From Tragulus kanchil (Eukaryota > Chordata > Mammalia > Artiodactyla > Tragulidae): a stretch of DNA of 64,000 nt. The notes below the pieces were generated by a model, which saw only the letters and a list, made by a program, of their open reading frames with translations, was not told the DNA's origin and made no database searches. The translations under genes and the position numbers were made by a program. Where the stretch lies: NCBI GenBank assembly GCA_022376925.1, contig JAIOJX010000025.1, positions 98,421,608 through 98,485,607 of the forward strand. The letters run 5' to 3'. This document shows positions 1 to 64,000 of this stretch, one piece after another. Each line of letters starts with the position of its first letter. Positions within the stretch are counted from its first letter, which is position 1.

Positions 1-2106
1 AGCATCATCGTCATAATCTATTGCCAACTGTGGACTGTTCCACAAAGCCAGTCTTGTAAAGTCACAGTTAACCCCACTTATCTAATTTTATCTACTGTAA
101 TAAAACACTTGGCCTCTTTCCCTATTTTCTAACAACATCACTGTCTTTGATCTAAAGCCTGGTATTTATATTTATATTTAGCATCTTCTTCTGAAGCTTC
201 CTTTTAAATGTTTATCCAATAATCATGGTTACATCAGGTACCAGTGGCACATACAAATCTTTTTTTTTTTTTTATAAAATTTTTCTTTCTTCTGTTTGAC
301 TCTTTAGAGAAGGAGAAGGAGGAGAGAGGAAATTGTCCTCATTCTTTCCTGGGATTCACAATTTATAAAAGTTTGTTGTTCTTGAAAAAGTCTTTTAAGA
401 TATTCAGTTCCCATAGCTGTTACAGCAGTAAGTGACTTATATTCATCAACAGAAATAACTTGGGTCCAATTGGAAGAACTTGAGGGACTCAAAGTAGCTC
501 AGTTGTTTTCTTTAGCTTTTCCATTTTGTATTTCAATTAATTTTCCCTCTGAAAAACATATAACAAGGAAACAAAAGGGTAAGACTATTTTATTTAAACA
601 GAAGTATCTAGGGAAAGAAAAAACCACAGATGTAAAAGTGAACAGACTATATACTTAATATATAAGTAAAATTTAATATATTTCAACTGGAGCATAGAAA
701 TTTTATCCATAGGCAGGAGAAACAGCCTTATATTAGGAATCACAAAATAAAAGGACATACATAAATTTACATATGCATACATATAACCATTAAAAATAGG
801 CCAAACACAATTTTAGCTTAAGAGAAATAATATTTTTGCTTCAATCATATACATATAAAGATAAAGTAATCATTTAATGTGTGTTAATTAAGTGTTTACT
901 ATGAGCTATGAAATACGAGAGCTTCTAGAAATGCAAACATACATAAAGAGAGCAAGATTGCCATCAGTTAAAAAAGTATTACAGATTTAACAAGGTTGAC
1001 AAGTTTCTGCGTATAGTACAATGTGCTGTTAAGTTCATTGTGATGATTTCCTTTTTCTCACACAAACCTTGCCAGGAAGGATTATCACTTTTGCACAATT
1101 TGTTGACAAAAGTGAAGTATAGAGACAGAGGAATCTTTTAGCATCATCGTCATAATCTATTGCCAACTGTGGACTGTTCCACAAAGCCAGTCTTGTAAAG
1201 TCACAGTTAACCCCACTTATCTAATTTTATCTACTGTAATAAAACACTTGGCCTCTTTCCCTATTTTCTAACAACATCACTGTCTTTGATCTAAAGCCTG
1301 GTATTTATATTTATATTTAGCATCTTCTTCTGAAGCTTCCTTTTAAATGTTTATCCAATAATCATGGTTACATCAGGTACCAGTGGCACATACAAATCTT
1401 TTTATTTTGTTTATAAAAATTTTTCTTTCTTCTGTTTGACTCTTTAGAGAAGGAGAAGGAGGAGAGAGGAAATTGTCCTCATTCTTTCCTGGGATTCACA
1501 ATTTATAAAAGTTTGTTGTTCTTGAAAAAGTCTTTTAAGATATTCAGTTCCCATAGCTGTTACAGCAGTAAGTGACTTATATTCATCAACAGAAATAACT
1601 TGGGTCCAATTGGAAGAACTTGAGGGACTCAAAGTAGCTCAGTTGTTTTCTTTAGCTTTTCCATTTTGTATTTCAATTAATTTTCCCTCTGAAAAACATA
1701 TAACAAGGAAACAAAAGGGTAAGACTATTTTATTTAAACAGAAGTATCTAGGGAAAGAAAAAACCACAGATGTAAAAGTGAACAGACTATATACTTAATA
1801 TATAAGTAAAATTTAATATATTTCAACTGGAGCATAGAAATTTTATCCATAGGCAGGAGAAACAGCCTTATATTAGGAATCACAAAATAAAAGGACATAC
1901 ATAAATTTACATATGCATACATATAACCATTAAAAATAGGCCAAACACAATTTTAGCTTAAGAGAAATAATATTTTTGCTTCAATCATATACATATAAAG
2001 ATAAAGTAATCATTTAATGTGTGTTAATTAAGTGTTTACTATGAGCTATGAAATACGAGAGCTTCTAGAAATGCAAACATACATAAAAGAGAGCAAGATT
2101 GCCATC
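1..2106. repeat. Ladder duplication D1 (start-to-start ~1139 b)
   Basis: Bases 1-965 recur almost unchanged at 1140-2106, in the same orientation. The first copy begins at or before the window edge. The copies differ in a T-rich run near 258-275 versus 1398-1411 and in one extra A near 2087. After both copies the sequence is scrambled, yet the same 19 bases reappear at 981-999 and 2133-2151, so the flanks are partly shared. A 140-base stretch (1000-1139) lies between this point and the second copy and is not repeated. Seen directly; the cause is inferred to be an assembly overlap. Confidence 0.93.
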
Positions 2107-2647
2107 TAAGAATTTAAATATAAGTGGAATATACAGATTTAACAAGGTTGATTTCAATCTATTTCTAAATAAATGATCAGTTGTTTTGAGAAGGGTTTAA
2201 TAACAGAAATAATTTAGCCCTATCTTCTCTACATTCCAAGGGAAAAAATTGGCATTTCATTGTAAGCCTACAAAAATATTTTGAAAATGCATTCTCTAAT
2301 TCTTTAAAATACCTTCTATCTGCAATCTGTATTTGTTACTCCCCACTGGGAATTTATATCAGACTTTAGAAGACATGTGAAAAAATATTTAGGGATAAAT
2401 ATATCAGAAATATTAAAGGATTAAGAAGTTAAGTTAAATATTTTTGCAGAAACAGTATAAGCTAAATCTGCTATATGTCAAGAAAACATAAGTAGTTAAT
2501 ATGAAATTAAGAACAAAGGTCTTACAGTCCTACTAGTCTGGAAACTAAATGATGCAAAATATTAGAAATGTTAGCATTTTAGTAGCATTCATTAGGTCAA
2601 TGGTATTTTATAATGTATAGAGCTATATAAATTTTTGAATTTGAGGC
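1..2647. other. AT-rich non-coding DNA, no recognised element
   Basis: Apart from duplication D1 I recognise no repeat family or gene here. Open frames of about 62 codons occur on both strands and recur in both D1 copies. They have biased hydrophobic or lysine-rich composition and look accidental. A short stretch near 1075-1135 faintly resembles the core of an antisense MIR, too weakly to call. Confidence 0.6.
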
Positions 2648-4851
2648 AGTCACTTCACATGCTGAAAACTGACAAAAGAACTCTCAGAAACGTACCATTT
2701 TAAAATGTATAAGCACTTTCAGTGATGAATGAAAAAGAATATTCACGGTTCTGTATGTTTGAAGAAATCTTTAGATACTTCAATGGATTTTTAGGAAGAA
2801 ATTAGGGAAGAAATTTAGGAAGAAATTAAGAGATGATTCCTGTGATTTTTAAGGTCAGGGAAAATTGAGAATCTGCCCAATTTGATGTCAAGAACTGAAA
2901 GGATTTTTTTTTCTCCCAACATCAGTAGTGACTGCTATAACTATTTTTTTTCCATTTTTTATTGGAATATAGTTGGTTTATAATGTTGTGTTAGTTTCAG
3001 GTATACAGCAAAGTGAATCAGTAGTACGAATACATATGTCCATTCATTTGTAGATTATTTTCCCATATAGGTCATTACAGTGTTGAATAGAGCTATCTGT
3101 GGTATACAGCAGATCCTTATCAGTTACCTACTTTATATATAGTAGTGTATATATGTCAATACCAACCTCCCAGTTTATCCCTCCTCCCTTACCCCGGGGA
3201 ACTATAACTTTGTTTTCTACATCTGTAACTCTTCCTGTTTTGTAAATAAGTTCATTTGTACACATTTTTTAGATTCCACCTATTTTTTTAGATTCCACTT
3301 ATTAGTGATATCGTATGATATTTACCTTTCTCTATTTGACTTACTTCACCACTTCACTCAGGATGACAGTCTCTACATCCATCCATCCATGTTGCTGCTA
3401 ATGGCATTATGTCACTTTTTTGACTGAGTAATACTCCATTGTGTATAGGTACCACATCTTCCTTATCCATTCCTCTGGCAATGAACACTTTGGTTGCTTC
3501 CATGTGTTGGCTATTCTATATAACGCTGCTAAGAATATATAGGTACAGGTATCTTTTATAGTTTTGTCAGCATATATGTCCAGGAGTGAGATGGCTGGGT
3601 CATATGGCAGTTCTAGTTTTAGTTTCTTAAGGACCCTCCATACTGTTCTCTAGTGGATTTTACCGATTTACACTCTCATCAAGAGTGTACGAGCATTCTC
3701 TTTCCTGCCCCTCTCCAGCATTTACTGCTTGTAGATTCTTTTGATGATAGTCACTTCACATGCTGAAAACTGACAAAAGAACTCTCAGAAACGTACCATT
3801 TTAAAATGTATAAGCACTTTCAGTGATGAATGAAAAGAATATTCACGGTTCTGTATGTTTGAAGAAATCTTTAGATACTTCAATGGATTTTTAGGAAGAA
3901 ATTAGGGAAGAAATTTAGGAAGAAATTAAGAGATGATTCCTGTGATTTTTAAGGTCAGGGAAAATTGAGAATCTGCCCAATTTGATGTCAAGAACTGAAA
4001 GGATTTTTTTTTCTCCCAACATCAGTAGTGACTGCTATAACTATTTTTTTTCCATTTTTTATTGGAATATAGTTGGTTTATAATGTTGTGTTAGTTTCAG
4101 GTATACAGCAAAGTGAATCAGTAGTACGAATACATATGTCCATTCATTTGTAGATTATTTTCCCATATAGGTCATTACAGTGTTGAATAGAGCTATCTGT
4201 GGTATACAGCAGATCCTTATCAGTTACCTACTTTATATATAGTAGTGTATATATGTCAATACCAACCTCCCAGTTTATCCCTCCTCCCTTACCCCCGGGT
4301 AACTATAACTTTGTTTTCTACATCTGTAACTCTTCCTGTTTTGTAAATAAGTTCATTTGTACACATTTTTTAGATTCCACCTATTTTTTTAGATTCCACT
4401 TATTAGTGATATCGTATGATATTTACCTTTCTCTATTTGACTTACTTCACCACTTCACTCAGGATGACAGTCTCTACATCCATCCATCCATGTTGCTGCT
4501 AATGGCATTATGTCACTTTTTTGACTGAGTAATACTCCATTGTGTATAGGTACCACATCTTCCTTATCCATTCCTCTGGCAATGAACACTTTGGTTGCTT
4601 CCATGTGTTGGCTATTCTATATAACGCTGCTAAGAATATATAGGTACAGGTATCTTTTATAGTTTTGTCAGCATATATGTCCAGGAGTGAGATGGCTGGG
4701 TCATATGGCAGTTCTAGTTTTAGTTTCTTAAGGCCTCTCCATACTGTTCTCTAGTGGATTTTACCGATTTACACTCTCATCAAGAGTGTACGAGCATTCT
4801 CTTTCCTGCCCCCCTCTCCAGCATTTACTGCTTGTAGATTCTTTTGATGAT
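2648..4851. repeat. Ladder duplication D2 (~1101 b)
   Basis: 2648-3748 is repeated directly at 3749-4851 with no spacer. The junction has a 5-base microhomology (agtca): the second copy runs on into the L1 continuation at 4852 while the first jumps back to 2648. Differences are mostly homopolymer length: runs of A near 2731, of C and G near 3193, and of C near 3708 versus 4809. Confidence 0.95.
2943..3748 (-). mobile_element. L1 LINE 3' end, antisense (first partial copy)
   Basis: After a T run at 2943-2951 the plus strand reads as the reverse complement of a cetartiodactyl L1 3' UTR and the end of ORF2. Landmarks are the 'taccacatcttcc' stretch near 3450 and the 'atggctgggtcatatggc' stretch near 3590. 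The T run is the poly(A) tail in reverse. The copy is cut by the D2 junction at 3748. It is a fossil with no open reading frame. Confidence 0.85.
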
Positions 4852-4930
4852 AGTCATTCTGACCAGTGTGAGGTGATACCTCACTGTAGTTTTGAGTTAC
4901 ATTTTTATAACACTTAGTGATGTTGAGCAA
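4043..4930 (-). mobile_element. L1 LINE 3' end, antisense (most complete copy)
   Basis: This is the same element as at 2943 but uninterrupted, from the reversed poly(A) at 4043-4051 to the 5' truncation near 4930, just after 'tgatgttgagca'. That motif belongs to the C-terminal ORF2 coding region of mammalian L1. About 890 bases remain, so the insertion was heavily 5'-truncated. No target-site duplication was identified. A third partial copy, made by D3, lies at 5614-6010. Confidence 0.87.
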
Positions 4931-5613
4931 ACGCCTTCAATCCTCTTGTTGCAGGTGAACTGAGGGACTGATTATTAAGTCTATAGTAAGGAAGAGTGAG
5001 TGGCATTGCCCACTGCATTACAAAAACTTCTTTTTATGCACCTGAAAATGAATTTCCTTCTAATCTTAGTCATTCTTTCCCTTAAGAATTGTTTCATTTT
5101 ACTTGAAAAGATATTTTGTTTTCTAAAACCAATTACGATTCCTTGTATACACTAGTGGCAAGAAAGTTTAGATGTAAGTAAAACACTACTATGAGGAATG
5201 AAAAATTGGAGCAGGGACGTAGGAAGCCATGTTTGGTTGCCAGAGGAATTTATTTGTCCCATAAATGTGTGGTATTGTATAAACTCTGGAGAATCAGAAA
5301 TTTTACAAACACATGTACAGGGAATACACATAAAATTTTTACAAAAGTAAACCTGTAGTCTAACCACACTTGGCTAGAGTGAGTTCCCATTAAAGGGAAT
5401 AATTGAGCAAAGTCTTCACTATCCACATTACCTTCTATTGGCCCACTTGACTCATTTACATCATCTGCCTGCTTCCCATTAACTATTTGGTTTTGTGCCC
5501 TTTGCTTTTTGGTATATGTTTTCCTCATTTCTACCTCAATTTTATATTATTTTTCTTATTTATTTACTTCCCTTTCATTTTACCTAATTTTATTTTTTTT
5601 ATTTTTCTTATTT
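4931..5613. other. Unique DNA with a coding-like antisense frame
   Basis: No repeat was recognised. On the minus strand, 5528 down to 5250 holds an uninterrupted 92-codon frame. Its first ~55 residues are rich in K, Q, N, D, E and S, unlike typical non-coding translation; the remainder is hydrophobic. An in-frame stop lies shortly upstream of the ATG, and I see no canonical splice donor at the change in composition. I do not recognise the protein. The frame recurs at 6331-6609 through D3. Confidence 0.4.
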
Positions 5614-6010
5614 AATACTCCATTGTGTATAGGTACCACATCTTCCTTATCCATTCCTCTGGCAATGAACACTTTGGTTGCTTCCATGTGTTGGCTATTC
5701 TATATAACGCTGCTAAGAATATATAGGTACAGGTATCTTTTATAGTTTTGTCAGCATATATGTCAGGAGTGAGATGGCTGGGTCATATGGCAGTTCTAGT
5801 TTTAGTTTCTTAAGGCCTCCATACTGTTCTCTAGTGGATTTTACCGATTTACACTCTCATCAAGAGTGTACGAGCATTCTCTTTCCTGCCCCCCTCTCCA
5901 GCATTTACTGCTTGTAGATTCTTTTGATGATAGTCATTCTGACCAGTGTGAGGTGATACCTCACTGTAGTTTTGAGTTACATTTTTATAACACTTAGTGA
6001 TGTTGAGCAA
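5614..6010 (-). mobile_element. L1 LINE 3' fragment, antisense (third copy)
   Basis: This is the part of the 4043-4930 element carried into the second copy of D3. It lacks the poly(A)-proximal half and begins abruptly at the D3 junction, so it is not an independent insertion. Confidence 0.82.
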
Positions 6011-7020
6011 ACGCCTTCAATCCTCTTGTTGCAGGTGAACTGAGGGACTGATTATTAAGTCTATAGTAAGGAAGAGTGAGTGGCATTGCCCACTGCATTA
6101 CAAAAACTTCTTTTTATGCACCTGAAAATGAATTTCCTTCTAATCTTAGTCATTCTTTCCCTTAAGAATTGTTTCATTTTACTTGAAAAGATATTTTGTT
6201 TTCTAAAACCAATTACGATTCCTTGTATACACTAGTGGCAAGAAAGTTTAGATGTAAGTAAAACACTACTATGAGGAATGAAAAATTGGAGCAGGGACGT
6301 AGGAAGCCATGTTTGGTTGCCAGAGGGAATTTATTTGTCCCATAAATGTGTGGTATTGTATAAACTCTGGAGAATCAGAAATTTTACAAACACATGTACA
6401 GGGAATACACATAAAATTTTTACAAAAGTAAACCTGTAGTCTAACCACACTTGGCTAGAGTGAGTTCCCATTAAAGGGAATAATTGAGCAAAGTCTTCAC
6501 TATCCACATTACCTTCTATTGGCCCACTTGACTCATTTACATCATCTGCCTGCTTCCCATTAACTATTTGGTTTTGTGCCCTTTGCTTTTTGGTATATGT
6601 TTTCCTCATTTCTACCTCAATTTTATATTATTTTTCTTATTTATTTACTTCCCTTTCATTTTTACCTAATTTATAATATTTTCCTATGTTTTATTGGTTT
6701 TCAATCCTAGTAAAAGTTGAGGTATCAATAAAAGAAGCAAATGCTGATTAAGTGTGACTTAACATTTTACCCAGTTAAGTATTTCCATATTTCTTTTGCT
6801 TGAAACATTCTATTGCATATTTGTTTTGTTTTTGTTTTTACTTTTTAAGGCTATTTCAAATTCTTTCCAAAATGAGATAAGGGACTCTTATAAAGCCAAC
6901 CTTAACTTTTTAAAAATCAAATTTTTTACCAATGCTGTCTTTAGTCATTTCCACAGGATCCTACAGATGATCCCACTTGGCTGAAACATGGTCACAGAAG
7001 CACAGACAAATACATGAATG
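6011..7020. other. Unique AT-rich DNA
   Basis: No gene or repeat family was recognised. Much of this stretch is the D3 second copy of 4931-5592, followed by sequence shared with 7591-8105 through D4. A 62-codon plus-strand frame at 6796-6984 (again at 7881-8069) is hydrophobic and probably accidental. Confidence 0.5.
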
Positions 7021-7588
7021 TGATGGTTAATTTTACGTGTCAACTTGGATAGGCCATGGGTTGCCCAGATGTTTGGTCAAATATGTCCTGGGTATTTCTA
7101 TGACAGTGTTTTGGACGAGATGACCATTCCAATTGGTAGTTTTTGAGTAGGTTGCCTTCATGGGCCTTCCTAGGGTGCTCAGCACTAAAGAATCCACCTG
7201 CAATGCAGTAACCACAGGAGAAATGGGTTCTGTCTCTGGGTTGTGCCAAGATTCCCTGGAGGAGGGCATGGTAACCCACTCCAGTATTCTTGCTGGGAGA
7301 ATCCCATGGACAGAGGAGTCTGGTGAGTTACAGTCCATAGGGTCACAAAGAGTCAGACATAACTGAAGCAACTTTGTATGCATGCAGATTGCCCTCATAA
7401 TGTCAATGGGTCTTATCCAATCAATTGAAAAACAGAACCCAATATAACAAAAATATTGGACTATCTTAAATAAGAGAGAATTTTCCACCAGACAGTTTTC
7501 AGACTTCATCTGTATTATGGGCTCATCTTTATCCTATAGCAAACTTCCTTTAGACTGAAACTACAGCATCATCTCTCTTGGGTCTCCA
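7021..7588 (+). repeat. Ancient LTR-like interspersed repeat, split by a SINE (first copy)
   Basis: Starts with 'tgatggttaattttacgtg' and matches a common old mammalian repeat that begins with TG and ends 'tctggagaac..actaa'. I cannot name the family with certainty. The element runs 7021-7161, is interrupted by a Bov-tA SINE and resumes at 7389. It is cut at 7588 by the D4 junction; the whole element is at 8106-8834. Confidence 0.6.
7162..7388 (+). mobile_element. Bov-tA-type SINE
   Basis: Ruminant tRNA-derived SINE with a BovB-like 3' part. Landmarks are a tRNA-like head with 'aagaatccacctgcaatgca', then 'cactccagtattcttgc', 'aatcccatggacagagga' and 'gtcacaaagagtcagacat'. It is flanked by 10-base direct repeats with one mismatch (7152-7161 and 7389-7398), which supports insertion into the LTR-like repeat. 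Frames here (for example 7033-7509 minus) are SINE translations, not genes. Confidence 0.88.
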
Positions 7589-8246
7589 CTACATTACCTT
7601 CTATTGGCCCACTTGACTCATTTACATCATCTGCCTGCTTCCCATTAACTATTTGGTTTTGTGCCCTTTGCTTTTTGGTATATGTTTTCCTCATTTCTAC
7701 CTCAATTTTATATTATTTTTCTTATTTATTTACTTCGCTTTCATTTTTACCTAATTTATAATATTTTCCTATGTTTTATTGGTTTTCAATCCTAGTAAAA
7801 GTTGAGGTATCAATAAAAGAAGCAAATGCTGATTAAGTGTGACTTAACATTTTACCCAGTTAAGTATTTCCATATTTCTTTTGCTTGAAACATTCTATTG
7901 CATATTTGTTTTGTTTTTGTTTTTACTTTTTAAGGCTATTTCAAATTCTTTCCAAAATGAGATAAGGGACTCTTATAAAGCCAACCTTAACTTTTTAAAA
8001 ATCAAATTTTTTACCAATGCTGTCTTTAGTCATTTCCACAGGATCCTACAGATGATCCCACTTGGCTGAAACATGGTCACAGAAGCACAGACAAATACAT
8101 GAATGTGATGGTTAATTTTACGTGTCAACTTGGATAGGCCATGGGTTGCCCAGATGTTTGGTCAAATATGTCCTGGGTATTTCTATGACAGTGTTTTGGA
8201 CGAGATGACCATTCCAATTGGTAGTTTTTGAGTAGGTTGCCTTCAT

Positions 8247-8473
8247 GGGCCTTCCTAGGGTGCTCAGCACTAAAGAATCCACCTGCAATGCAGTAACCAC
8301 AGGAGAAATGGGTTCTGTCTCTGGGTTGTGCCAAGATTCCCTGGAGGAGGGCATGGTAACCCACTCCAGTATTCTTGCTGGGAGAATCCCATGGACAGAG
8401 GAGTCTGGTGAGTTACAGTCCATAGGGTCACAAAGAGTCAGACATAACTGAAGCAACTTTGTATGCATGCAGA
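8247..8473 (+). mobile_element. Bov-tA-type SINE (D4 copy)
   Basis: Duplicate of the SINE at 7162 produced by D4, with the same flanking 10-base near-perfect repeats at 8237-8246 and 8474-8483. It is not an independent retroposition. Confidence 0.88.
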
Positions 8474-8756
8474 TTGCCCTCATAATGTCAATGGGTCTTA
8501 TCCAATCAATTGAAAAACAGAACCCAATATAACAAAAATATTGGACTATCTTAAATAAGAGAGAATTTTCCACCAGACAGTTTTCAGACTTCATCTGTAT
8601 TATGGGCTCATCTTTATCCTATAGCAAACTTCCTTTAGACTGAAACTACAGCATCATCTCTCTTGGGTCTCCAGGCTGTAATCCCACCCTTCAGGTTGGA
8701 CTTGCTGACAACCATGGTCACATAAGGCAATTCCTTATAGTCTCTCTTGTTCTATC

Positions 8757-8794
8757 TACACACACACACAGAGAGACACACACACACACACACT
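8757..8794. repeat. (CA)n with (GA) interruption microsatellite
   Basis: Two CA runs flank a short GAGAGA block. The D5 copy at 9889-9928 has a different repeat number, as expected from slippage or sequencing error. Confidence 0.9.
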
Positions 8795-8991
8795 CTATTA
8801 GTTCTGTTTCTCTGGAGAACTTTGACTAAAATAGTGAGTTCAGATTTTCTTATTTAACTGAACTTTCTCATTAGATAACCATCTGACTATCACAAGATTT
8901 CATGTCAACTATGTTTTTTACTTCTTTAAAGTCTGCAGTGGATGCTGCTGGCATTCTTGAGCGCTCAGTGCTTGTTTCATTCTCTTTTTTG

Positions 8992-9256
8992 GGCACTTTT
9001 ATTGGTCTTTCATTTATTTATTTTCATCCATTTTCATCCATCTTTGTTCTGTGGCCTGTGTGGGCCTCCCATTGCAGTGGCCTTTCCTGTAGCAGAACAC
9101 CAGCTCTGGGCGCATGTGCTCCAGAGTGCTACCTCATAATTTGACACTCTGTTCCAGACGCTCTGAGGCAAGTGGGATCTTCCCAGGCCAGGGATTGAAC
9201 TGGTGCCCCTTGCAGTGCAAATCAGACTGTCTACTCACTGGACCACCAGGGAAGCC
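8992..9256 (-). mobile_element. CHR-type tRNA SINE, short form, antisense
   Basis: Reverse complement of the CHR-like SINE. The tRNA head end ('ccaccagggaagcc') is at 9243-9256 and the tail ('cacttttattggtctttca') at 8995. The B-box equivalent reads as 'gggattgaac' in reverse near 9191. Many CpG sites have decayed, which suggests an older copy. The D5 copy is at 10124-10389. Confidence 0.88.
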
Positions 9257-9373
9257 ATCATTCTCTCTTTTTGTAAAGTTGCTATTTATTGAGCCCTTTC
9301 TAAGATTGGGAAATTATAGCAGTGAATTACATAGCTTAACCATCTTGATCATTTCAGACTGTTTCAATAAAAA

Positions 9374-9611
9374 TGTCATAAACTGGGTGGTTTAAACATC
9401 AAATATATCACAATTATAAATATCAAAATTCTAGTGAATAGATAGTGCAAGCTTAAGGTACTAACAGATGAGGTGTTTGACAAGAGCCTTCTTCCTGGTT
9501 CATAGGTGGACATGATTTCCCAGTGTTCTCATGTGGCATACTAATCCCTTTCCTGAGTGTTCTATCTTCATGAGTTAATTATCCACCATGTTCCAGACCC
9601 TAATACCATCA
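9374..9611 (-). mobile_element. MaLR-type LTR, antisense (truncated by D5)
   Basis: Plus-strand landmarks read as a MaLR (MST/MLT1-like) LTR in reverse: 'actgggtggtttaaac' near 9383, 'cttcctggttcatagg' near 9490 and 'ccctaataccatcac' at the cut. The D5 junction removes the remainder; the fuller copy is at 10507-10800. Confidence 0.65.
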
Positions 9612-10123
9612 CATAATGTCAATGGGTCTTATCCAATCAATTGAAAAACAGAACCCAATATAACAAAAATATTGGACTATCTTAAATAAGAGAGAATTTT
9701 CCACCAGACAGTTTTCAGACTTCATCTGTATTATGGGCTCATCTTTATCCTATAGCAAACTTCCTTTAGACTGAAACTACAGCATCATCTCTCTTGGGTC
9801 TCCAGGCTGTAATCCCACCCTTCAGGTTGGACTTGCTGACAACCATGGTCACATAAGGCAATTCCTTATAGTCTCTCTTGTTCTATCTACACACACACAC
9901 AGAGAGACACACACACACACACACACTCTATTAGTTCTGTTTCTCTGGAGAACTTTGACTAAAATAGTGAGTTCAGATTTTCTTATTTAACTGAACTTTC
10001 TCATTAGATAACCATCTGACTATCACAAGATTTCATGTCAACTATGTTTTTTACTTCTTTAAAGTCTGCAGTGGATGCTGCTGGCATTCTTGAGCGCTCA
10101 GTGCTTGTTTCATTCTCTTTTTT

Positions 10124-10389
10124 GGGCACTTTTATTGGTCTTTCATTTATTTATTTTCATCCATTTTCATCCATCTTTGTTCTGTGGCCTGTGTGGGCCT
10201 CCCATTGCAGTGGCCTTTCCTGTAGCAGAACACCAGCTCTGGGCGCATGTGCTCCAGAGTGCTACCTCATAATTTGACACTCTGTTCCAGACGCTCTGAG
10301 GCAAGTGGGATCTTCCCAGGCCAGGGATTGAACTGGTGCCCCTTGCAGTGCAAATCAGACTGTCTACTCACTGGACCACCAGGGAAGCC
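10124..10389 (-). mobile_element. CHR-type tRNA SINE, short form, antisense (D5 copy)
   Basis: Near-identical duplicate of the element at 8992-9256 carried by D5. Confidence 0.87.
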
Positions 10390-10506
10390 ATCATTCTCTC
10401 TTTTTGTAAAGTTGCTATTTATTGAGCCCTTTCTAAGATTGGGAAATTATAGCAGTGAATTACATAGCTTAACCATCTTGATCATTTCAGACTGTTTCAA
10501 TAAAAA

Positions 10507-10800
10507 TGTCATAAACTGGGTGGTTTAAACATCAAATATATCACAATTATAAATATCAAAATTCTAGTGAATAGATAGTGCAAGCTTAAGGTACTAACAG
10601 ATGAGGTGTTTGACAAGAGCCTTCTTCCTGGTTCATAGGTGGACATGATTTCCCAGTGTTCTCATGTGGCATACTAATCCCTTTCCTGAGTGTTCTATCT
10701 TCATGAGTTAATTATCCACCATGTTCCAGACCCTAATACCATCACACTGGGGACTTTGACTTATGAATTGTGAAGGGAACCTAAACTCCAGTCCACAACA
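10507..10800 (-). mobile_element. MaLR-type solo LTR, antisense
   Basis: Fuller version of the LTR at 9374, continuing past 'ataccatcacactgggg' to 'agtccacaaca', the classic MaLR edge in reverse. It is an endogenous-retrovirus-like relic with no internal region and no open frame. Confidence 0.68.
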
Positions 10801-11185: not shown

Positions 11186-11447
11186 GACTTCCCTGGTGGT
11201 CCAGTAGGTAAAGAGTCTGCTTTGCACTTCAAGGGGCACCAGTTCAATCCCTGGCCTAGGGAGATCCCATCTGCCATGGAGTGGCTGGACTGGTGTGTCC
11301 AATTACAAGCCAACACTCTGGAGTGCACGGACCCAGAGCCAGTACTCTGCGACAAGGGAAGTCACTGCGATGGTAGGCCTACACAGGCCAAAGAATAAAG
11401 ATGGATGAAAACTAACTAAATAAATAAAGGCCAAAATTTAAAAAATA
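11186..11447 (+). mobile_element. CHR-type tRNA SINE, short form
   Basis: Begins 'gacttccctggtggtccag' and carries an A-box-like 'tggtccagtaggta' and a B-box-like 'agttcaatccc'. It ends with the 'aggccaaagaataaagatgg' motif and A/T-rich simple tail sequence. Diverged, CpG-poor older copy. Confidence 0.86.
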
Positions 11448-11530
11448 AAATATATAGCCATTTGACACCCATTAGATAACATACTTTTCTTTTAAATGAC
11501 AATAGCCTCTTATTATTAAAACTAAACGTA

Positions 11531-11859
11531 GGGCTTCCCCTGGTGGTCCAGTGGGTAAGGACACCACCTTGCAGTGCAAGGGGCGCCGGTTCGATCCCTG
11601 GCCTGGGAAGATCCCACGTGCCGCGAAGCGGCTGGACCGATGTGTCCAATTACCGAGCCAGAGCTCTGGATTGCATGCGCCCAGAGCCGGTGCTCTGCGA
11701 CAACAGAGGCCACCGTGATGGGAGGCCCACAGGAGCCAAAGAACAAAGACGGATGAAAATAGAGAAATGAAAGACCAATAGAAGTGGCCCGCCCGCTCCT
11801 CTCCCTCCCCAATCCGACCCACGCCCAAAATAAATAAATAAATCTTAAAAAAAAAAAAA
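11531..11859 (+). mobile_element. CHR-type tRNA SINE, long form, with target-site duplication
   Basis: About 329 bases with well-kept CpGs, an A box 'tggtccagtgggtaagga' and a B box 'ggttcgatccc'. After the 'gaccaatagaagtggccc' block it has a C/T-rich extension of about 50-55 bases (11788-11828), then (AAAT)n and poly(A). A perfect 13-base target-site duplication (aaaactaaacgta) flanks it at 11518-11530 and 11860-11872, so this is a genuine and fairly young insertion. The D6 copy is at 12650-12978. Confidence 0.95.
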
Positions 11860-52997: not shown

Positions 52998-53400
52998 AAT
53001 GGACACTTCACCAGTTCATCTCAGCAGCATTCGACACAGCTGGAAACTTCCTCCTCTCCGTGGTCTTATTCTCCCCCTATTTCTTTCAGCAAATACAGGT
53101 CTCTTATCTTTCACTCTACATTTTGTATATGGATGTGCACCAGGGTTCCGTTCTGGGCCTCTTTTCTTCCTTGTCTTCACTTCTTTCCATTTAATCACAT
53201 ACATTCTGTCTTTGCATATCATCTCTAGCCTAGATCCAATTTAGCAATCCCCCCAGCTTCATTCTCGTAGATATCACTGTCTCTCTGACATCTCTACCAA
53301 AATATATGAAAACCATTTCAAACTTATTAAGGTCCAAAAACAAACTGTTAAATTTTCTCTTCAAACCTGTTCTTTCTCCTATTTTTCCTACCTTGTTTCA
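52998..53400 (+). mobile_element. L2 LINE fragment (RT 3' region)
   Basis: Sense L2 landmarks: 'tcatctcagcagcattcgac', 'tgcaccagggttccgttctg', 'gtagatatcactgtctctct' and 'catttcaaacttattaaggt'. An ancient LINE relic; the 92-codon frame here is not a gene. The D17 copy from 54281 carries only the right part. Confidence 0.68.
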
Positions 53401-53404
53401 AGTT

Positions 53405-53665
53405 GTTTTTTCTTAATTGATGTATAGTTGATTTACAGTATTATGTTTCAGATGTGTGACATAGTGATTCAATATTTTCACAGAGTATATTACTCTAATC
53501 TATAAAAGTTTATATAAAGTTATTATAAAAATGGTCATATTCCTTATGTTGTACAATATAATTCTTATAGCTTATTTATTTTATACATAGTGGTTTGTGC
53601 CTCTTAATCTCCTACCTATTTTGTCCCTCCCTCTTTCCTTTCCCTACTGGTAACCACAATGTAGC
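53405..53665 (-). mobile_element. L1 3' UTR fragment, antisense
   Basis: 'gatgtatagttgatttacag', 'gatgtgtgacatagtgattc' and 'ctactggtaaccacaatgta' follow the reversed 3' UTR of old cetartiodactyl L1. The D17 copy is at 54535-54795. Confidence 0.65.
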
Positions 53666-53878
53666 AAAAGGTCCAATGGGTAAGATAAATATTATTAATT
53701 ATAATGTGTTAGCATAAGTGATTAAAAAAAAAGCACAAAAGAAAATAGGAACACAGTCTAAAGTTACCACTTGGGAAGAAAATAATTAAAAGGGGATGTT
53801 TCTGAACTATTGTTTTCAAAGATGGTATGGCACCAGGATTTGCCTTCATGCCCTTTTTTATCTGCCTATACTTTTGAG

Positions 53879-53997
53879 GGTAATTCCCTGGCAGTCCAGG
53901 GATTAGGACTCTGTACTTTCGCTATGAGGGCCGAGGTTCCAGCCCTGTTGGAAGAAATCAGTCCCCACTAGTCGTGCAGTGTGGCCAGATAAAAAGG
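53879..53997 (+). mobile_element. CHR-2-type tRNA SINE
   Basis: 'taattccctggcagtccagg' head, 'gaggttccagccctgttgg' B-box region and 'gtgcagtgtggccagataaa' end. About 120 bases and diverged. The D17 copy is at 55009-55127. Confidence 0.8.
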
Positions 53998-55008
53998 TTT
54001 TCTTAAATAGTACTTTTCCCACATTCGCTTTTAATTAGAGACTTTAAAATTTGCTTTAAAATCTCATTCTCTGCACCACACTTCCACAGAAACAAGCAGG
54101 TCCCTGGTGAGCACAAGGGGACCAGGCAGTGAGGTTAGAGAAATGGAGACCAACTATAAGCCCTACAACATCAGGTAGGGGTGCAGCATCATCCATAGAA
54201 ATCAACTGGTAGAATTAATTAAGAGCATTGTTTTTGCATAGGAGTGTCTTGAGTGAACAAAAATTGGGTAGAAGTAAAGGTTCTGGGCCTCTTTTCTTCC
54301 TTGTCTTCACTTCTTTCCATTTAATCACATACATTCTGTCTTTGCATATCATCTCTAGCCTAGATCCAATTTAGCAATCCCCCCAGCTTCATTCTCGTAG
54401 ATATCACTGTCTCTCTGACATCTCTACCAAAATATATGAAAACCATTTCAAACTTATTAAGGTCCAAAAACAAACTGTTAAATTTTCTCTTCAAACCTGT
54501 TCTTTCTCCTATTTTTCCTACCTTGTTTCAAGTTGTTTTTTCTTAATTGATGTATAGTTGATTTACAGTATTATGTTTCAGATGTGTGACATAGTGATTC
54601 AATATTTTCACAGAGTATATTACTCTAATCTATAAAAGTTTATATAAAGTTATTATAAAAATGGTCATATTCCTTATGTTGTACAATATAATTCTTATAG
54701 CTTATTTATTTTATACATAGTGGTTTGTGCCTCTTAATCTCCTACCTATTTTGTCCCTCCCTCTTTCCTTTCCCTACTGGTAACCACAATGTAGCAAAAG
54801 GTCCAATGGGTAAGATAAATATTATTAATTATAATGTGTTAGCATAAGTGATTAAAAAAAAAGCACAAAAGAAAATAGGAACACAGTCTAAAGTTACCAC
54901 TTGGGAAGAAAATAATTAAAAGGGGATGTTTCTGAACTATTGTTTTCAAAGATGGTATGGCACCAGGATTTGCCTTCATGCCCTTTTTTATCTGCCTATA
55001 CTTTTGAG

Positions 55009-55127
55009 GGTAATTCCCTGGCAGTCCAGGGATTAGGACTCTGTACTTTCGCTATGAGGGCCGAGGTTCCAGCCCTGTTGGAAGAAATCAGTCCCCACTA
55101 GTCGTGCAGTGTGGCCAGATAAAAAGG
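55009..55127 (+). mobile_element. CHR-2-type tRNA SINE (D17 copy)
   Basis: Duplicate of 53879-53997 carried by D17. Confidence 0.8.
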
Positions 55128-55647
55128 TTTTCTTAAATAGTACTTTTCCCACATTCGCTTTTAATTAGAGACTTTAAAATTTGCTTTAAAATCTCATTCT
55201 CTGCACCACACTTCCACAGAAACAAGCAGGTCCCTGGTGAGCACAAGGGGACCAGGCAGTGAGGTTAGAGAAATGGAGACCAACTATAAGCCCTACAACA
55301 TCAGGTAGGGGTGCAGCATCATCCATAGAAATCAACTGGTAGAATTAATTAAGAGCATTGTTTTTGCATAGGAGTGTGTTGAGTGAACAGTTTAGAAGGA
55401 AGAACTTTGGGGTAAGAAGCAAACATCCAACAAATGCCAACAACTTTTGACCATTACCATCACTGCCTGGCAAACCCCTTTGCTTCCTTTAAGAACTAGT
55501 CCAAAGGTCCTCTCCTTTCTGAAGCATTTGCATTTAATCAGTCAACTTCCTCTCCTGAGCACCTAAAGGCTTCCATGATGACATGACTAGTTATGACTAG
55601 TTATCATGGTATGCACTACAGTGGATGGAGCTATTTAGTTAGCACAT

Positions 55648-56014
55648 TGTATCAGTCAACTCAGGCTGCCATATTGAAATGCCATATGCTAGGTGACTTA
55701 AACCTCAGAAATTCATTTTCTGACAGTTCAATTCTGGAGGCTAGAAGTTCAAGATCAAGGTGTCATCTAGGCTGGTTTCTGGTGAGGATCTCTTCTTAGC
55801 ATGCAGCCTTCTAGCTGTGTGGACATGGTGGACAGAGAGAGCTTTGAAGTCTCTTCCTCTTCTTCTAAGGACACCAGTTCTATCAGCTTAGGGCCTCACA
55901 CTTGTGACATCATTTAACCTTCAATGCTGACTCAGAGGCCCTATCTCCAAATACAGTCACATGAATACTGAGGAGACATGAATACTGAGGAGACACAGCA
56001 TTTAGTCTATAACA
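55648..56014 (-). mobile_element. MaLR-type LTR, antisense
   Basis: Reversed LTR landmarks: 'gtatcagtcaactcaggctg', 'aattctggaggctagaagtt', 'ctctagctgtgtgg'-like text near 55811, 'ccctatctccaaatacagtc' and the end 'tagtctataaca'. It contains a 17-base tandem doublet (catgaatactgaggaga) at 55963-55996. No viral genes. The D18 copy is at 56820-57186. Confidence 0.75.
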
Positions 56015-56108
56015 TACGTGTCTCATGAAGACTATGCCTCGGTCATAGTTTAATCCCAGCACTTTTCTCTGAGCCTAGCACATTGAAAAAGATAATTTTT
56101 CAATGAAA

Positions 56109-56131
56109 GGATGGATGGATGAATGGATGGA
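56109..56131. repeat. (GGAT)n microsatellite
   Basis: Five to six GGAT/GAAT units, repeated at 57281-57303 through D18. Confidence 0.88.
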
Positions 56132-56819
56132 GAAATCCTAAAAGAGCTGAATACTACTTAGGGATGCAAATTTTACCAGTACTTTTACAAAAAATACTCC
56201 CTAAGTGCTAGTCTATAGAAATTTTATTATTTTATTTTCAGACTGAACAGGTAGCTTATTAACTACTCAACATACTTTAAAGGCTTTTCTACAAAAATTC
56301 AGATTATTTTTAAACTTTTCCCACATTCGCTTTTAATTAGAGACTTTAAAATTTGCTTTAAAATCTCATTCTCTGCACCACACTTCCACAGAAACAAGCA
56401 GGTCCCTGGTGAGCACAAGGGGACCAGGCAGTGAGGTTAGAGAAATGGAGACCAACTATAAGCCCTACAACATCAGGTAGGGGTGCAGCATCATCCATAG
56501 AAATCAACTGGTAGAATTAATTAAGAGCATTGTTTTTGCATAGGAGTGTGTTGAGTGAACAGTTTAGAAGGAAGAACTTTGGGGTAAGAAGCAAACATCC
56601 AACAAATGCCAACAACTTTTGACCATTACCATCACTGCCTGGCAAACCCCTTTGCTTCCTTTAAGAACTAGTCCAAAGGTCCTCTCCTTTCTGAAGCATT
56701 TGCATTTAATCAGTCAACTTCCTCTCCTGAGCACCTAAAGGCTTCCATGATGACATGACTAGTTATGACTAGTTATCATGGTATGCACTACAGTGGATGG
56801 AGCTATTTAGTTAGCACAT

Positions 56820-57186
56820 TGTATCAGTCAACTCAGGCTGCCATATTGAAATGCCATATGCTAGGTGACTTAAACCTCAGAAATTCATTTTCTGACAGTT
56901 CAATTCTGGAGGCTAGAAGTTCAAGATCAAGGTGTCATCTAGGCTGGTTTCTGGTGAGGATCTCTTCTTAGCATGCAGCCTTCTAGCTGTGTGGACATGG
57001 TGGACAGAGAGAGCTTTGAAGTCTCTTCCTCTTCTTCTAAGGACACCAGTTCTATCAGCTTAGGGCCTCACACTTGTGACATCATTTAACCTTCAATGCT
57101 GACTCAGAGGCCCTATCTCCAAATACAGTCACATGAATACTGAGGAGACATGAATACTGAGGAGACACAGCATTTAGTCTATAACA
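56820..57186 (-). mobile_element. MaLR-type LTR, antisense (D18 copy)
   Basis: Near-identical duplicate of 55648-56014, including the 17-base doublet. Confidence 0.75.
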
Positions 57187-57567
57187 TACGTGTCTCATGA
57201 AGACTATGCCTCGGTCATAGTTTAATCCCAGCACTTTTCTCTGAGCCTAGCACATTGAAAAAGATAATTTTTCAATGAAAGGATGGATGGATGAATGGAT
57301 GGAGAAATCCTAAAAGAGCTGAATACTACTTAGGGATGCAAATTTTACCAGTACTTTTTACAAAAAAATACTCCCTAAGTGCTAGTCTATAGAAATTTTA
57401 TTATTTTATTTTCAGACTGAACAGGTAGCTTATTAACTACTCAACATACTTTAAAGGCTTTTCTACAAAAATTCAGATTATTTGTTACTTCTAGCCTTCT
57501 TCATTTAGTTGAATTTGAACTTTATATTTCAAAAGTTTGTTACTATTTTACCACAAGTACATTAATT

Positions 57568-58260
57568 CTACAATTCCTTTCATAATAGCAACAAAAAATG
57601 AATAAAATATTTAGATAGCAAAGAAGAGTAAGAATGTTGTGAAAATGACAAAATGTTATTAAGTGAAATTAAAAAGATCTAAAGCATCCCAAGTTCATTT
57701 ATTCAAAAATTCAGTATTGTTAAGATGAAAACTATTCTCAATTTGTCCATAGATTCAACATAAACTGTATCAAAATTCCAGCAGGCTTTTGCATAAATTG
57801 AAAATTCATCCAAAAGTGTATAAGGGATTTCAAGGAATGAACACAGTTGAAATAATTTTGAAAAGAAATTAATAAAAACTAGAAGACCTTAACTTTTGAA
57901 TTTTAAATTCATTATAAAGCTACAATGGTACTTGCAGAGGATGAGCATGTATATCTATGAAACAGAATTGAGAGTCTAGAAATAATAGCCTTGCATTTAT
58001 AGTTAATTGATTTTGTCAAAGATACCAAAGCGATTAAATATAGAAAAAGATAACTTTATTAAAAGATGACAATGGGACAGTTATACATCTACAATAGTGT
58101 GAACTTTGACTCTTACACTATAGGCAAAAATTACACAAAATTTTGGGAAAAAAATCAAAATTTATTTTACTCAAATATAAGCACTAAAATAATAAAACTT
58201 TTGAAAGATAGCATATGAAAATATATTCTGGACCCTGGTTAAGCAACTATTTCTTAGATA
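57568..58260 (+). mobile_element. Ancient L1 (L1M-like) ORF2 fragment
   Basis: Sense ORF2 phrases in order: 'attcctttcataatagcaac', 'gtattgttaagatgaaaact', 'atcaaaattccagcaggctt', 'aagctacaatggtacttgca' and 'atttcttagatatgacatc'. Many stops. The D19 copy is at 58694-59386. Confidence 0.78.
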
Positions 58261-58611
58261 TGACATCAGCAGTACACTCTATTTGGCCTGCAGGATAAGG
58301 ACCCCTCAAGGACATCTATAATCCTAGCTCCTAGAACCTGTACATATACTTAAAAGGAAACACTGCAAAAGGTGACTAAGTTTGCCTATGGAATCAAAGT
58401 TTATAGTTACCCTTAAAATCAGTTATTCTTAAAACAGAGATATTCTTCTTGGCTCTCTAGGAAAGTCCAATAGAGCCACAAGGGTTTAAAAGTAGAAGAG
58501 GAAGGAAGATGGAGGAGTCCGAGTTAGATCACAGCAATGTGATGTAAGGACTAGACCCACTATTTGGGCTTTGAAGGGTGAAGAATAGAATCACAAGCAA
58601 GGAAATGGAGG
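58261..58611 (+). mobile_element. MaLR (MLT1-like) LTR, truncated at D19
   Basis: First part of the LTR whose full copy is at 59387-59910; cut at the ladder junction. Confidence 0.62.
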
Positions 58612-58693
58612 TACTTCTAGCCTTCTTCATTTAGTTGAATTTGAACTTTATATTTCAAAAGTTTGTTACTATTTTACCACAAGTACATTAATT

Positions 58694-59386
58694 CTACAAT
58701 TCCTTTCATAATAGCAACAAAAAATGAATAAAATATTTAGATAGCAAAGAAGAGTAAGAATGTTGTGAAAATGACAAAATGTTATTAAGTGAAATTAAAA
58801 AGATCTAAAGCATCCCAAGTTCATTTATTCAAAAATTCAGTATTGTTAAGATGAAAACTATTCTCAATTTGTCCATAGATTCAACATAAACTGTATCAAA
58901 ATTCCAGCAGGCTTTTGCATAAATTGAAAATTCATCCAAAAGTGTATAAGGGATTTCAAGGAATGAACACAGTTGAAATAATTTTGAAAAGAAATTAATA
59001 AAAACTAGAAGACCTTAACTTTTGAATTTTAAATTCATTATAAAGCTACAATGGTACTTGCAGAGGATGAGCATGTATATCTATGAAACAGAATTGAGAG
59101 TCTAGAAATAATAGCCTTGCATTTATAGTTAATTGATTTTGTCAAAGATACCAAAGCGATTAAATATAGAAAAAGATAACTTTATTAAAAGATGACAATG
59201 GGACAGTTATACATCTACAATAGTGTGAACTTTGACTCTTACACTATAGGCAAAAATTACACAAAATTTTGGGAAAAAAATCAAAATTTATTTTACTCAA
59301 ATATAAGCACTAAAATAATAAAACTTTTGAAAGATAGCATATGAAAATATATTCTGGACCCTGGTTAAGCAACTATTTCTTAGATA
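58694..59386 (+). mobile_element. Ancient L1 ORF2 fragment (D19 copy)
   Basis: Near-identical duplicate of 57568-58260. Confidence 0.77.
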
Positions 59387-59910
59387 TGACATCAGCAGTA
59401 CACTCTATTTGGCCTGCAGGATAAGGACCCCTCAAGGACATCTATAATCCTAGCTCCTAGAACCTGTACATATACTTAAAAGGAAACACTGCAAAAGGTG
59501 ACTAAGTTTGCCTATGGAATCAAAGTTTATAGTTACCCTTAAAATCAGTTATTCTTAAAACAGAGATATTCTTCTTGGCTCTCTAGGAAAGTCCAATAGA
59601 GCCACAAGGGTTTAAAAGTAGAAGAGGAAGGAAGATGGAGGAGTCCGAGTTAGATCACAGCAATGTGATGTAAGGACTAGACCCACTATTTGGGCTTTGA
59701 AGGGTGAAGAATAGAATCACAAGCAAGGAAATGGAGGCACTCTCTAAACGGTAAAAAGGGCACGTAATATATTTTGGCCTAGAACTTTCAGAAAGGAATA
59801 CAGCCCTGCCAACACCTTGATTTTAGCTCAGTGAGACTCCTTTCAGAATTCTGAATTATCAAACTTCATTTTGTGGTAACTTGTTATGGAATTCATGGAA
59901 ATCTAGTACA
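59387..59910 (+). mobile_element. MaLR (MLT1-like) LTR inserted in ancient L1
   Basis: About 520 bases ending 'ttcatggaaatctagtaca' after 'acagccctgccaacacctt' and 'gattttagctcagtgagact', the standard MLT1 3' part. L1 sequence lies on both sides. A relic without internal genes. Confidence 0.73.
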
Positions 59911-60453: not shown

Positions 60454-60719
60454 GGGCTTCCCTGGTGGTCCAGTGGGTAAGGACACCGCCTTGCAGTGCA
60501 AGGGGCGCTGTTTCGATCCCTAGCCTGAGAAGAACCCATGTGCCACGGAGCGGCTGGACCTATGTGTCCAACTACCAAGCCGGAGCTCTGGAGAACATGC
60601 GCCCAGAGCCAGTGCTCTGCGACGAGAGAGGCCACTGCAATAGGAGGCCCACACAGGCCAAAAGAACAAAGATAGAAATAAATGAAAGATCAATAGAAGT
60701 GGCCAAAAAAAAAAAAAAA
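60454..60719 (+). mobile_element. CHR-type tRNA SINE, short form, inside L1
   Basis: 'gggcttccctggtggtccag' head, B box 'gtttcgatccc', and an end 'aatagaagtggcc' then poly(A) at 60705-60719. No clear target repeat. Its 3' part is copied at 61712-61807 by D20. Confidence 0.93.
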
Positions 60720-61425
60720 TAGCCAGATATTTCCCACAGTGGCAAGTGACCTAGGAATTCCACTCTTAGATATCAATCCAAAAATATATATATATATATC
60801 CACACAAAGACCTGCACACAAACGTTCTTTGCAGGCTTATACATATGAGAGACAAAAGTTAGAAACAGCCTAAATAGCCCTCAGTTGATGAATACCTATG
60901 CAAAGTAGTATATCCATATGACAGAATATGACTCTTTAATAATATTCATTATTATTATTATTTATTACTATTAATAATGATTACTATTATTAATGTGGTT
61001 TTTTTTTACAGAGTTTTATTGTTTACTGCCACACATCAACCTAATACTACTTTTAGTACTATTCAGTAATAAAAAGAAACAAACTACTGTTGCATAGTAT
61101 ATCATCAACAAACCTCAGAAACACCATGCTGAGTGAAAGAAGCCAGAAACAAGAGAACATATATTAAATTATTAGTTATATGTGAATGTCTGTAAAAGGC
61201 AAATCTATAGAAACATACAATAGATGAACGGTTGCCTGATGTGCTGGGGTGGAGAGGGGGACAGAGTTTAACAGCTGGTGGACTTGAGGGTCTCAGTGAG
61301 GTAACAGGAATGTTCCAAATCTGATTTACTGTGATGCTTACATAACTTGAAAATTTACTGAAAAATGGAGCCTTATACTCGCAGTGGGTAAACATGCCTC
61401 AATAACAATGTATATAAAAATGTGT
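60720..61425 (+). mobile_element. Ancient L1 3' end (ORF2 end and 3' UTR)
   Basis: 'cctaggaattccactcttag', 'tgatgaatacctatgcaaag', 'agtgaaagaagccagaaaca' and 'atgcttacataacttgaaaa' follow L1 order to the 3' UTR. It contains (TA)n near 60785, (TTA)n near 60944 and a tiny antisense L1 insertion at 60999-61042. The D20 copy is at 61808-62513. Confidence 0.82.
60999..61042 (-). mobile_element. Minimal L1 3'-end insertion, antisense
   Basis: T run followed by 'gagttttattgtttactgcc' and 'acacatcaac'. This matches the 3' extremity of the ruminant L1 at 13665-13705 and then stops. Only about 35 bases of L1 beyond poly(A) were inserted, which breaks the older L1. The D20 copy is at 62087-62130. Confidence 0.72.
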
Positions 61426-61807
61426 TTTTTCTGCCAAAATTTCCCCAGTTCTAAATCTATGATTCTTCATCTATCCTTGATTTAATACATTATCCCAAAA
61501 GAATAGATCAGAAGTCAAGGAAAACTGGCTCCCATCTGAGGAAGAGGTATTTAGAAACACTTCTGCTCCAGAAAGTGAGATATAGCTATGAAGTTATCCC
61601 TTTAGAATTCAGTTTATACAATTTGCTAACTATAAAATGTTGACAATTCCCAACTTTTACATTTTCACTGATTTTAGAATTAATTTTTATAATGAACCTT
61701 TAATTTTGATAACGAGGACCACTGCAATAAGGAGGCCCACACAGGCCAAAAGAACAAAGATAGAAATAAATGAAAGATCAATAGAAGTGGCCAAAAAAAA
61801 AAAAAAA

Positions 61808-62513
61808 TAGCCAGATATTTCCCACAGTGGCAAGTGACCTAGGAATTCCACTCTTAGATATCAATCCAAAAATATATATATATATATCCACACAAAGACC
61901 TGCACACAAACGTTCTTTGCAGGCTTATACATATGAGAGACAAAAGTTAGAAACAGCCTAAATAGCCCTCAGTTGATGAATACCTATGCAAAGTAGTATA
62001 TCCATATGACAGAATATGACTCTTTAATAATATTCATTATTATTATTATTTATTACTATTAATAATGATTACTATTATTAATGTGGTTTTTTTTTACAGA
62101 GTTTTATTGTTTACTGCCACACATCAACCTAATACTACTTTTAGTACTATTCAGTAATAAAAAGAAACAAACTACTGTTGCATAGTATATCATCAACAAA
62201 CCTCAGAAACACCATGCTGAGTGAAAGAAGCCAGAAACAAGAGAACATATATTAAATTATTAGTTATATGTGAATGTCTGTAAAAGGCAAATCTATAGAA
62301 ACATACAATAGATGAACGGTTGCCTGATGTGCTGGGGTGGAGAGGGGGACAGAGTTTAACAGCTGGTGGACTTGAGGGTCTCAGTGAGGTAACAGGAATG
62401 TTCCAAATCTGATTTACTGTGATGCTTACATAACTTGAAAATTTACTGAAAAATGGAGCCTTATACTCGCAGTGGGTAAACATGCCTCAATAACAATGTA
62501 TATAAAAATGTGT
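61808..62513 (+). mobile_element. Ancient L1 3' end (D20 copy)
   Basis: Near-identical duplicate of 60720-61425, including the minimal L1 insertion. Confidence 0.82.
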
Positions 62514-64000
62514 TTTTTCTGCCAAAATTTCCCCAGTTCTAAATCTATGATTCTTCATCTATCCTTGATTTAATACATTATCCCAAAAGAATAGATCAGA
62601 AGTCAAGGAAAACTGGCTCCCATCTGAGGAAGAGGTATTTAGAAACACTTCTGCTCCAGAAAGTGAGATATAGCTATGAAGTTATCCCTTTAGAATTCAG
62701 TTTATACAATTTGCTAACTATAAAATGTTGACAATTCCCAACTTTTACATTTTCACTGATTTTAGAATTAATTTTTATAATGAACCTTTAATTTTGAAAT
62801 TGAACTAAATGTGAAATAGTACATGAGCTTATCATCTAAGGGAAACTAAAATAAGAAATAGGCTGTGGCTGGGAACTTCATCTTGATGTCTATTTTATCA
62901 TCCATTCACTGTAAGGTAATTTATCAGCAGCAAGGATGAAGAAAAAGGTACAATTTAGAATATGAATTTAGTAAACTAATCTTTGAAAATGCTTCATTTA
63001 CCGTTTATTGAATTATAGCCAGTCTCCTCAACAAAAGGCCCTGCAGTTAGAATTTACAATGAAAAGTGAAGATAGTAAAACATGTAATTCCCTAACATTT
63101 CATTCACTGAACCATTAAACAAGAGACGTGTTTGCAAAATCAAAACCTGAATGTATTTTTATTAGTATTTTCAACGAAAGAACTTTTGGCACACATCCCA
63201 GACTCTACATTCAGAACAGAAATTAAAGCAATTAAAGTCTCATTGAGAAATACTGATAATAATATAACATAAACAGTGAGTTCCCCATTCTAGCTCTCCT
63301 AGATAAGCTACCATTATAGAAGAGACTAGAGCAAGGAGAAATTCCAGATCATATTTTTTGGTTACTATTAGCAACATTTGCAAAGAGATAAGCCAAAGTA
63401 GGAGATAAGTGAAGAATCAAGGGTTAAGGAAAGAATGGAATCTTAAGGCCTTCTTATACAAACTGATTTATAGATGACATAATGGCCATAAGAGAAATAT
63501 TAATGATGTTAAATCTGTCATGGAAAAACTGAATGTAAAATATATTAAAATGAATTCAGAAAGATTGAGATTTTGAAATATCCATAGATAATAAGATTTA
63601 GTAAATAATTCACTAGAAGAACACGCATATGAAAAACAAATAACAACAACACATCATTCTACCATCTTTCGAGAAAAAACTGGTTGAAATTATTATTCTA
63701 TTTTGATTCTTTAAAATTTCAAATGATTAACAGTAACTTCTCTAAAAAACCATTAAGAATTCAGGTATATGTTATACTTTATTGTAACCTTATTTTCCAT
63801 AGGACTTTTCAAGTGTTTTAACTTCTATAAGTTTTTAATTGTTTCAAAACTCAATGTGAAATAGTACATGAGCTTATCATCTAAGGGAAACTAAAATAAG
63901 AAATAGGCTGTGGCTGGGAACTTCATCTTGATGTCTATTTTATCATCCATTCACTGTAAGGTAATTTATCAGCAGCAAGGATGAAGAAAAAGGTACAATT
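62514..64000. other. Unique AT-rich non-coding DNA
   Basis: No gene or repeat family was recognised. Its start, 62514-62797, is the end of D20 and its final bases are the start of the D21 second copy. Confidence 0.5.
62808..64000. repeat. Ladder duplication D21 (~1045 b, continues past the window)
   Basis: The sequence from 62808 begins again at 63853 ('aatgtgaaatagtacatgag') and remains identical to the last base of the window. Only 148 bases of the second copy are visible. Confidence 0.93.

Follow-up and report, generated by a model that had tools for sequence, protein, structure and literature searches.

The question raised by this locus is whether a long series of direct, near-identical repeats, each of about 1.1 kb, is carried in the genome of Tragulus kanchil or was generated when the sequence was put together. 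The window, i.e., the whole 64,000-bp stretch of DNA analyzed here (G000:C8:98421608-98485607), belongs to an assembly of 3,167,203,957 bases in 32 contigs, 16 of which are longer than 70 Mb while the remaining 16 are 10.7 Mb or shorter. The original prediction had described the structure and left open whether it was real or an artefact. The structure was upheld in this study, and an artefact is now strongly favored because of the spread of the ladder over the assembly, its single step length, the clustering of differences at the ends of the copies, and the outcome of a comparison of regions present in three copies. In the animal, each duplicated stretch should exist once.

Duplication ladder in the window

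The 21 places at which the sequence had been noticed to jump back were recovered as 21 junctions between direct, near-identical repeats by self-BLAST of the window, both alone and with 30 kb of flanking sequence on each side. With the flanks included, the step of these repeats was 1045-1172 bp, in agreement with the predicted length of about 1.05-1.17 kb, and the identity of the copies was 98.3-100%. Second copies made up 22,212 bp of the 64,000 bp, compared with a predicted amount of about 23 kb. The first pair begins 148 bp to the left of the window start, and the last runs to 64913, 913 bp beyond the window end. The junctions are listed below in window coordinates.

1..2151, + strand: junction 1, copy 1 -148..999, copy 2 996..2151, step 1144 bp, 98.3% identity
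2648..4859, + strand: junction 2, copy 1 2648..3757, copy 2 3749..4859, step 1101 bp
4530..6682, + strand: junction 3, copy 1 4530..5599, copy 2 5613..6682, step 1083 bp
6506..8673, + strand: junction 4, copy 1 6506..7588, copy 2 7591..8673, step 1085 bp
8481..10746, + strand: junction 5, copy 1 8481..9613, copy 2 9612..10746, step 1131 bp
11439..13655, + strand: junction 6, copy 1 11439..12533, copy 2 12557..13655, step 1118 bp
14218..16408, + strand: junction 7, copy 1 14218..15316, copy 2 15309..16408, step 1091 bp
16947..19137, + strand: junction 8, copy 1 16947..18038, copy 2 18046..19137, step 1099 bp, 100% identity
18775..20972, + strand: junction 9, copy 1 18775..19877, copy 2 19870..20972, step 1095 bp
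20594..22724, + strand: junction 10, copy 1 20594..21636, copy 2 21683..22724, step 1089 bp
22630..24915, + strand: junction 11, copy 1 22630..23771, copy 2 23774..24915, step 1144 bp, 100% identity
28723..30977, + strand: junction 12, copy 1 28723..29832, copy 2 29860..30977, step 1137 bp
36516..38674, + strand: junction 13, copy 1 36516..37582, copy 2 37609..38674, step 1093 bp
42603..44781, + strand: junction 14, copy 1 42603..43674, copy 2 43713..44781, step 1110 bp
44717..46860, + strand: junction 15, copy 1 44717..45785, copy 2 45793..46860, step 1076 bp
48597..50844, + strand: junction 16, copy 1 48597..49702, copy 2 49743..50844, step 1146 bp
53150..55389, + strand: junction 17, copy 1 53150..54259, copy 2 54280..55389, step 1130 bp
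55142..57487, + strand: junction 18, copy 1 55142..56312, copy 2 56314..57487, step 1172 bp
57486..59746, + strand: junction 19, copy 1 57486..58619, copy 2 58612..59746, step 1126 bp
60628..62797, + strand: junction 20, copy 1 60628..61709, copy 2 61714..62797, step 1086 bp
62803..64000, + strand: junction 21, copy 1 62803..63869, copy 2 63848..64913, step 1045 bp, cut by the window end

The 46-bp insert at junction 10 and the 26-bp insert at junction 13 were both similar to the tail of copy 1. A 132-bp filler at junction 1 was rejected as an effect of the window edge, being gone once the flank was added.

The window and both flanks together (124 kb) contained 36 junctions, the ladder continuing into either flank. 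With cut-offs of 150 bp and 95% identity, 43 pairs were found in these 124 kb; all were direct (36 at one step and seven at about two steps, the latter where two junctions lie close to each other) and none was inverted; the ladder therefore goes past what chance would give. The copies are adjacent and follow each other in chain order, as untrimmed overlaps between consecutive pieces would leave them. The duplicated stretches are mutually unrelated, some bearing SINE copies and one a reverse-transcriptase fragment (PF00078), which bears out the earlier view that no single sequence family lies behind the repeats. N bases were absent from the window and from the sampled stretches L001-L019, L039-L041, and L047.

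Extent of the ladder across the assembly

As would be the case with untrimmed overlaps, the ladder is restricted to neither a locus nor a family. It was present in all eight distant stretches, which lie on six chromosome-scale contigs (two each on C8 and C1, one each on C2, C5, C15, and C23), with 20 junctions in 75 kb and two to four per stretch, counting also the pairs that a stretch end truncates. Ten other large contigs were sampled by 500-base pieces alone, which are too short for the ladder to be tested. As to the smaller contigs, one junction was found in 8 kb of C10, and the ladder was absent from 8 kb of C9 and 5 kb of C20. A 212-bp pair with 97.6% identity at a distance of 1,385 bp in C20 sits among the 72 rows of pairs listed but was not counted as ladder. 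Contigs C14, C16, and C25 have exactly 200,000, 242,000, and 225,000 bases and look like pieces excised in scaffolding correction.

In L013-L019, seven stretches of 10 kb each, second copies accounted for 27% of the sequence, and in the whole 249 kb of chromosomal sequence examined, the window and its neighbors included, for 31.5%. The 16 large contigs agree with the 2n = 32 of chevrotains (Tragulus). The size of a Tragulus javanicus scaffold assembly is given as 2.59 Gb (PMC11628655), and the 3.17 Gb of the present assembly departs from it in the direction expected under false duplication. Trimming of the sampled redundancy would leave about 2.2-2.3 Gb, which is less than the 2.59 Gb of T. 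javanicus; the redundancy seen in the sample may therefore not extend to the whole assembly, or the two species may differ.

Step length and the proposed origin

Measured on the 65 pairs with a span above 1,000 bp, the step was 1045-1314 bp with a median of 1116 bp and a coefficient of variation (CV) of 3.8%. The sampled sequence has the structure of a chain, with a nearly fixed overlap, pieces of variable length, and low-quality heads and tails, and this was present on six contigs. Judged from the sequence itself, the ladder is almost certainly an artefact of the whole assembly, produced by the concatenation of overlapping consensus pieces without trimming. Consensus pieces would have been chained so that neighbors shared about 1.1 kb, and would have been written end to end with the shared part left in. 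The joining step would have missed this shared part, possibly because the overlap parameter was set wrongly or because the piece ends were of poor quality, and scaffolding would then carry the untrimmed overlaps into the chromosomes.

It is also conceivable, but unlikely, that the junctions are old draft gaps which were filled from long reads or a local assembly, a flank of ~1 kb remaining untrimmed. Gap filling would also give noisy piece ends without N, and wrong filling between false duplicates is described by Ko et al. (2022, PMC9516828). However, an original gap would be required every ~3.5 kb, and a fixed untrimmed flank would result in an exact step and not in one ranging from 1045 to 1314 bp.

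Differences between the copies

If untrimmed overlaps are the cause, the head of one piece and the tail of another are being compared in each pair. The 65 pairs, aligned over 72,433 columns, differed by 107 mismatches and by 164 indel events, of which 85 fell in homopolymers. From the first to the last tenth of the overlap the events numbered 99, 12, 6, 10, 24, 22, 13, 5, 8, and 72; the two outer tenths held 171 of the 271 differences (binomial p about 1e-53), or 170 of 247 when one unusual pair was left out. In this pair (L017:1409-2454 and 2502-3548), 21 mismatches are packed in about 230 bp in the middle of the copy, unlike in the other 64 pairs, and the 23 events that it supplies to the 100 inner ones largely explain the bump in mid-overlap. 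Its mismatch block presumably resembles L1 sequence, and mis-polishing from another L1 copy is a possible cause.

Where two junctions lie close, the tail of one piece, the interior of the next, and the head of a third form a three-copy region. At the 51 sites of 17 such regions, the odd one out was the head 29 times, the tail 17 times, and the interior three times, and all three copies differed at two sites; a head or a tail was thus the deviating copy at 46 sites. This agrees with untrimmed overlaps, in that the errors lie at heads and tails and the interior copy is correct, with one marked exception among the 65 pairs.

These differences make it very unlikely that the ladder is a heterotype false duplication, in which two haplotypes are assembled as neighboring, overlapping contigs, as in the duplicated overlapping contigs of Kelley and Salzberg (2010). 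Most false duplication is traced to this source by Ko et al. (PMC9516828) and by Kelley and Salzberg (PMC2864568), and the interior mismatches of the L017 pair would fit it. However, overlaps between haplotypes should vary in length, whereas the overlap here is nearly fixed, and substitutions should be spread through the copies, whereas six of the 65 pairs were identical throughout and, in the inner 80% of the copies, 28 pairs were free of differences and 54 had no more than two; the L017 pair was an exception.

Piece length and junction sequences

Distances from junction to junction were 1,756-8,602 bp with a median of 2,753 bp (53 distances, excluding pairs truncated where a stretch begins). 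Two values, 545 bp for a spacing and 1,641 bp for a piece length, were discarded, since the pair behind them was truncated at a piece end. Contigs chunked into fixed-size overlapping windows for parallel polishing and rejoined without trimming would yield a constant overlap throughout the genome, but equal chunks would then be expected, and with pieces of such unequal length this explanation is very unlikely.

The inserts at the junctions often resembled the ends of nearby pieces. This was the case in 16 of 21 inserts of at least 17 bp (at a p of 0.02 or lower in one or more of four contexts), and in single tests similarity to piece ends was found in 19 of 84, vs. four of 84 at random places. 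This wider test was designed after the result of a narrower one was known, in which two contexts were used and a source was found for seven of 23 inserts of at least 12 bp and none for the other 16. Neither test took in inserts close to where a fetched piece ended.

The ladder could, in principle, consist of real tandem duplications left by a replication or repair process that duplicated 1.1-kb stretches in situ across the genome of this lineage, but this is extremely improbable. It would be consistent with copies that are direct, adjacent, and near-identical, and with the overlap of 1-22 bp, free of inserted bases, that the aligned copies show at 24 of 64 junctions. At nine of the 64 the overlap was 8 bp or more, the microhomology null covering exact matches only; however, none of the 64 had an overlap of at least 6 bp that was exact on both sides, so that these overlaps do not resemble clean repair scars. 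Independent events would vary in size, show other spacings, and spread their differences evenly, and mutations after duplication would neither crowd the ends of the copies nor spare the interior copy, which was the odd one out at only three of 51 sites. We know of no process that yields a step with a CV of 3.8% every few kilobases on all tested chromosomes, as was observed here. A living ruminant lineage with very many real 1.1-kb duplications made in place by a genome-wide, length-measuring replication process is hardly credible.

Possible source program

The verdict of an artefact through untrimmed overlaps is independent of which program made the assembly. We infer that layout units of the wtdbg/wtdbg2 type are most likely behind the pieces. 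In wtdbg/wtdbg2, a single point is common to neighboring layout units, an overlap of up to 256 bp is allowed between points, and a normal run should strip the shared stretch. The present pieces are like such units in forming a chain of unequal members that share about 1 kb, with noisy ends and indel-rich differences. They are unlike them in that the shared stretch was kept, no 256-bp grid was seen, and about 1.1 kb is shared. Quantization of the piece spacing by 256 bp was not detected among 45 spacings below 3 kb, some of which come from pairs cut by a piece end (R was 0.24, and the null reached 0.35 at its 95% level); a grid blurred by read indels could be masked. Four spacings (609, 724, 729, and 735 bp) were shorter than the 768 bp expected if points overlap by 256 bp or less. 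Sequences of 1,024 bp are taken as graph points by wtdbg2, according to PMC7506008, and the median step of 1116 bp (1045-1314 bp) lies nearer to 1.1 kb than to this length. The part available of PMC7247394 contains nothing on the overlap.

Relation to known false duplications

This kind of error is already known. The ladder is like homotype false duplication, or under-collapsed sequence, which according to Ko et al. (2022, PMC9516828) consists of near-identical copies blamed on read errors and not on haplotypes, and which inflates the counts of genes and repeats. False duplications are located by Ko et al. mostly next to gaps. The ladder is also like the duplicated overlapping contigs described by Kelley and Salzberg (2010, PMC2864568), in which the terminal overlap of two neighbors is retained in both. 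However, the latter cases were attributed to haplotypes and concerned separate contigs, whereas here the sequence is free of gaps and the overlap nearly fixed; set beside those of Ko et al., the present duplications reach 27-32% of the sampled sequence at a nearly fixed step and without N. Compared with these two papers, the amount and the regularity look unusual.

If the overlaps were left untrimmed by the assembly, 27-32% of the sampled chromosomal sequence would be a false second copy. Gene models, exon counts, and repeat landscapes derived from this assembly would then be wrong until it is trimmed, and so would statements on segmental duplication, copy number, and genome size. The combination of a nearly fixed step, repeats between direct neighbors only, end-clustered differences, and a correct interior copy may serve as a signature in the screening of long-read assemblies.

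Repeats and coding fragments in the window

The warning that annotation would count elements twice was justified. A reverse transcriptase match (PF00078, E 4.7e-15) at 17042-17449 on the minus strand, presumably an L1 remnant, has its second copy at 18138-18548, and the 136-aa frame of 17042-17449 is listed again there. Pfam, applied to 10 frames out of the 35 that measured at least 100 aa from stop to stop, gave no other match. Neither Rfam at gathering scores nor ARAGORN gave a match in the window.

Members of a ~330-bp tRNA-type SINE family are present at 11515-11870, 39727-40058, 40222-40535, 48091-48403, 60441-60730, and other positions, and are about 79-89% alike in self-BLAST of the window. 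We take the SINEs of the window to be of ruminant type, and the elements at 25257, 30875, and 7248 to be Bov-tA-like; by impression rather than formal count, the tRNA-type SINEs seem to outnumber the Bov-tA-like elements, which might suggest a chevrotain more than a ruminant of the cow type. Outside the ladder, a tandem pair of 130 bp with 87.7% identity lies at 52362-52620 and may be a real local duplication.
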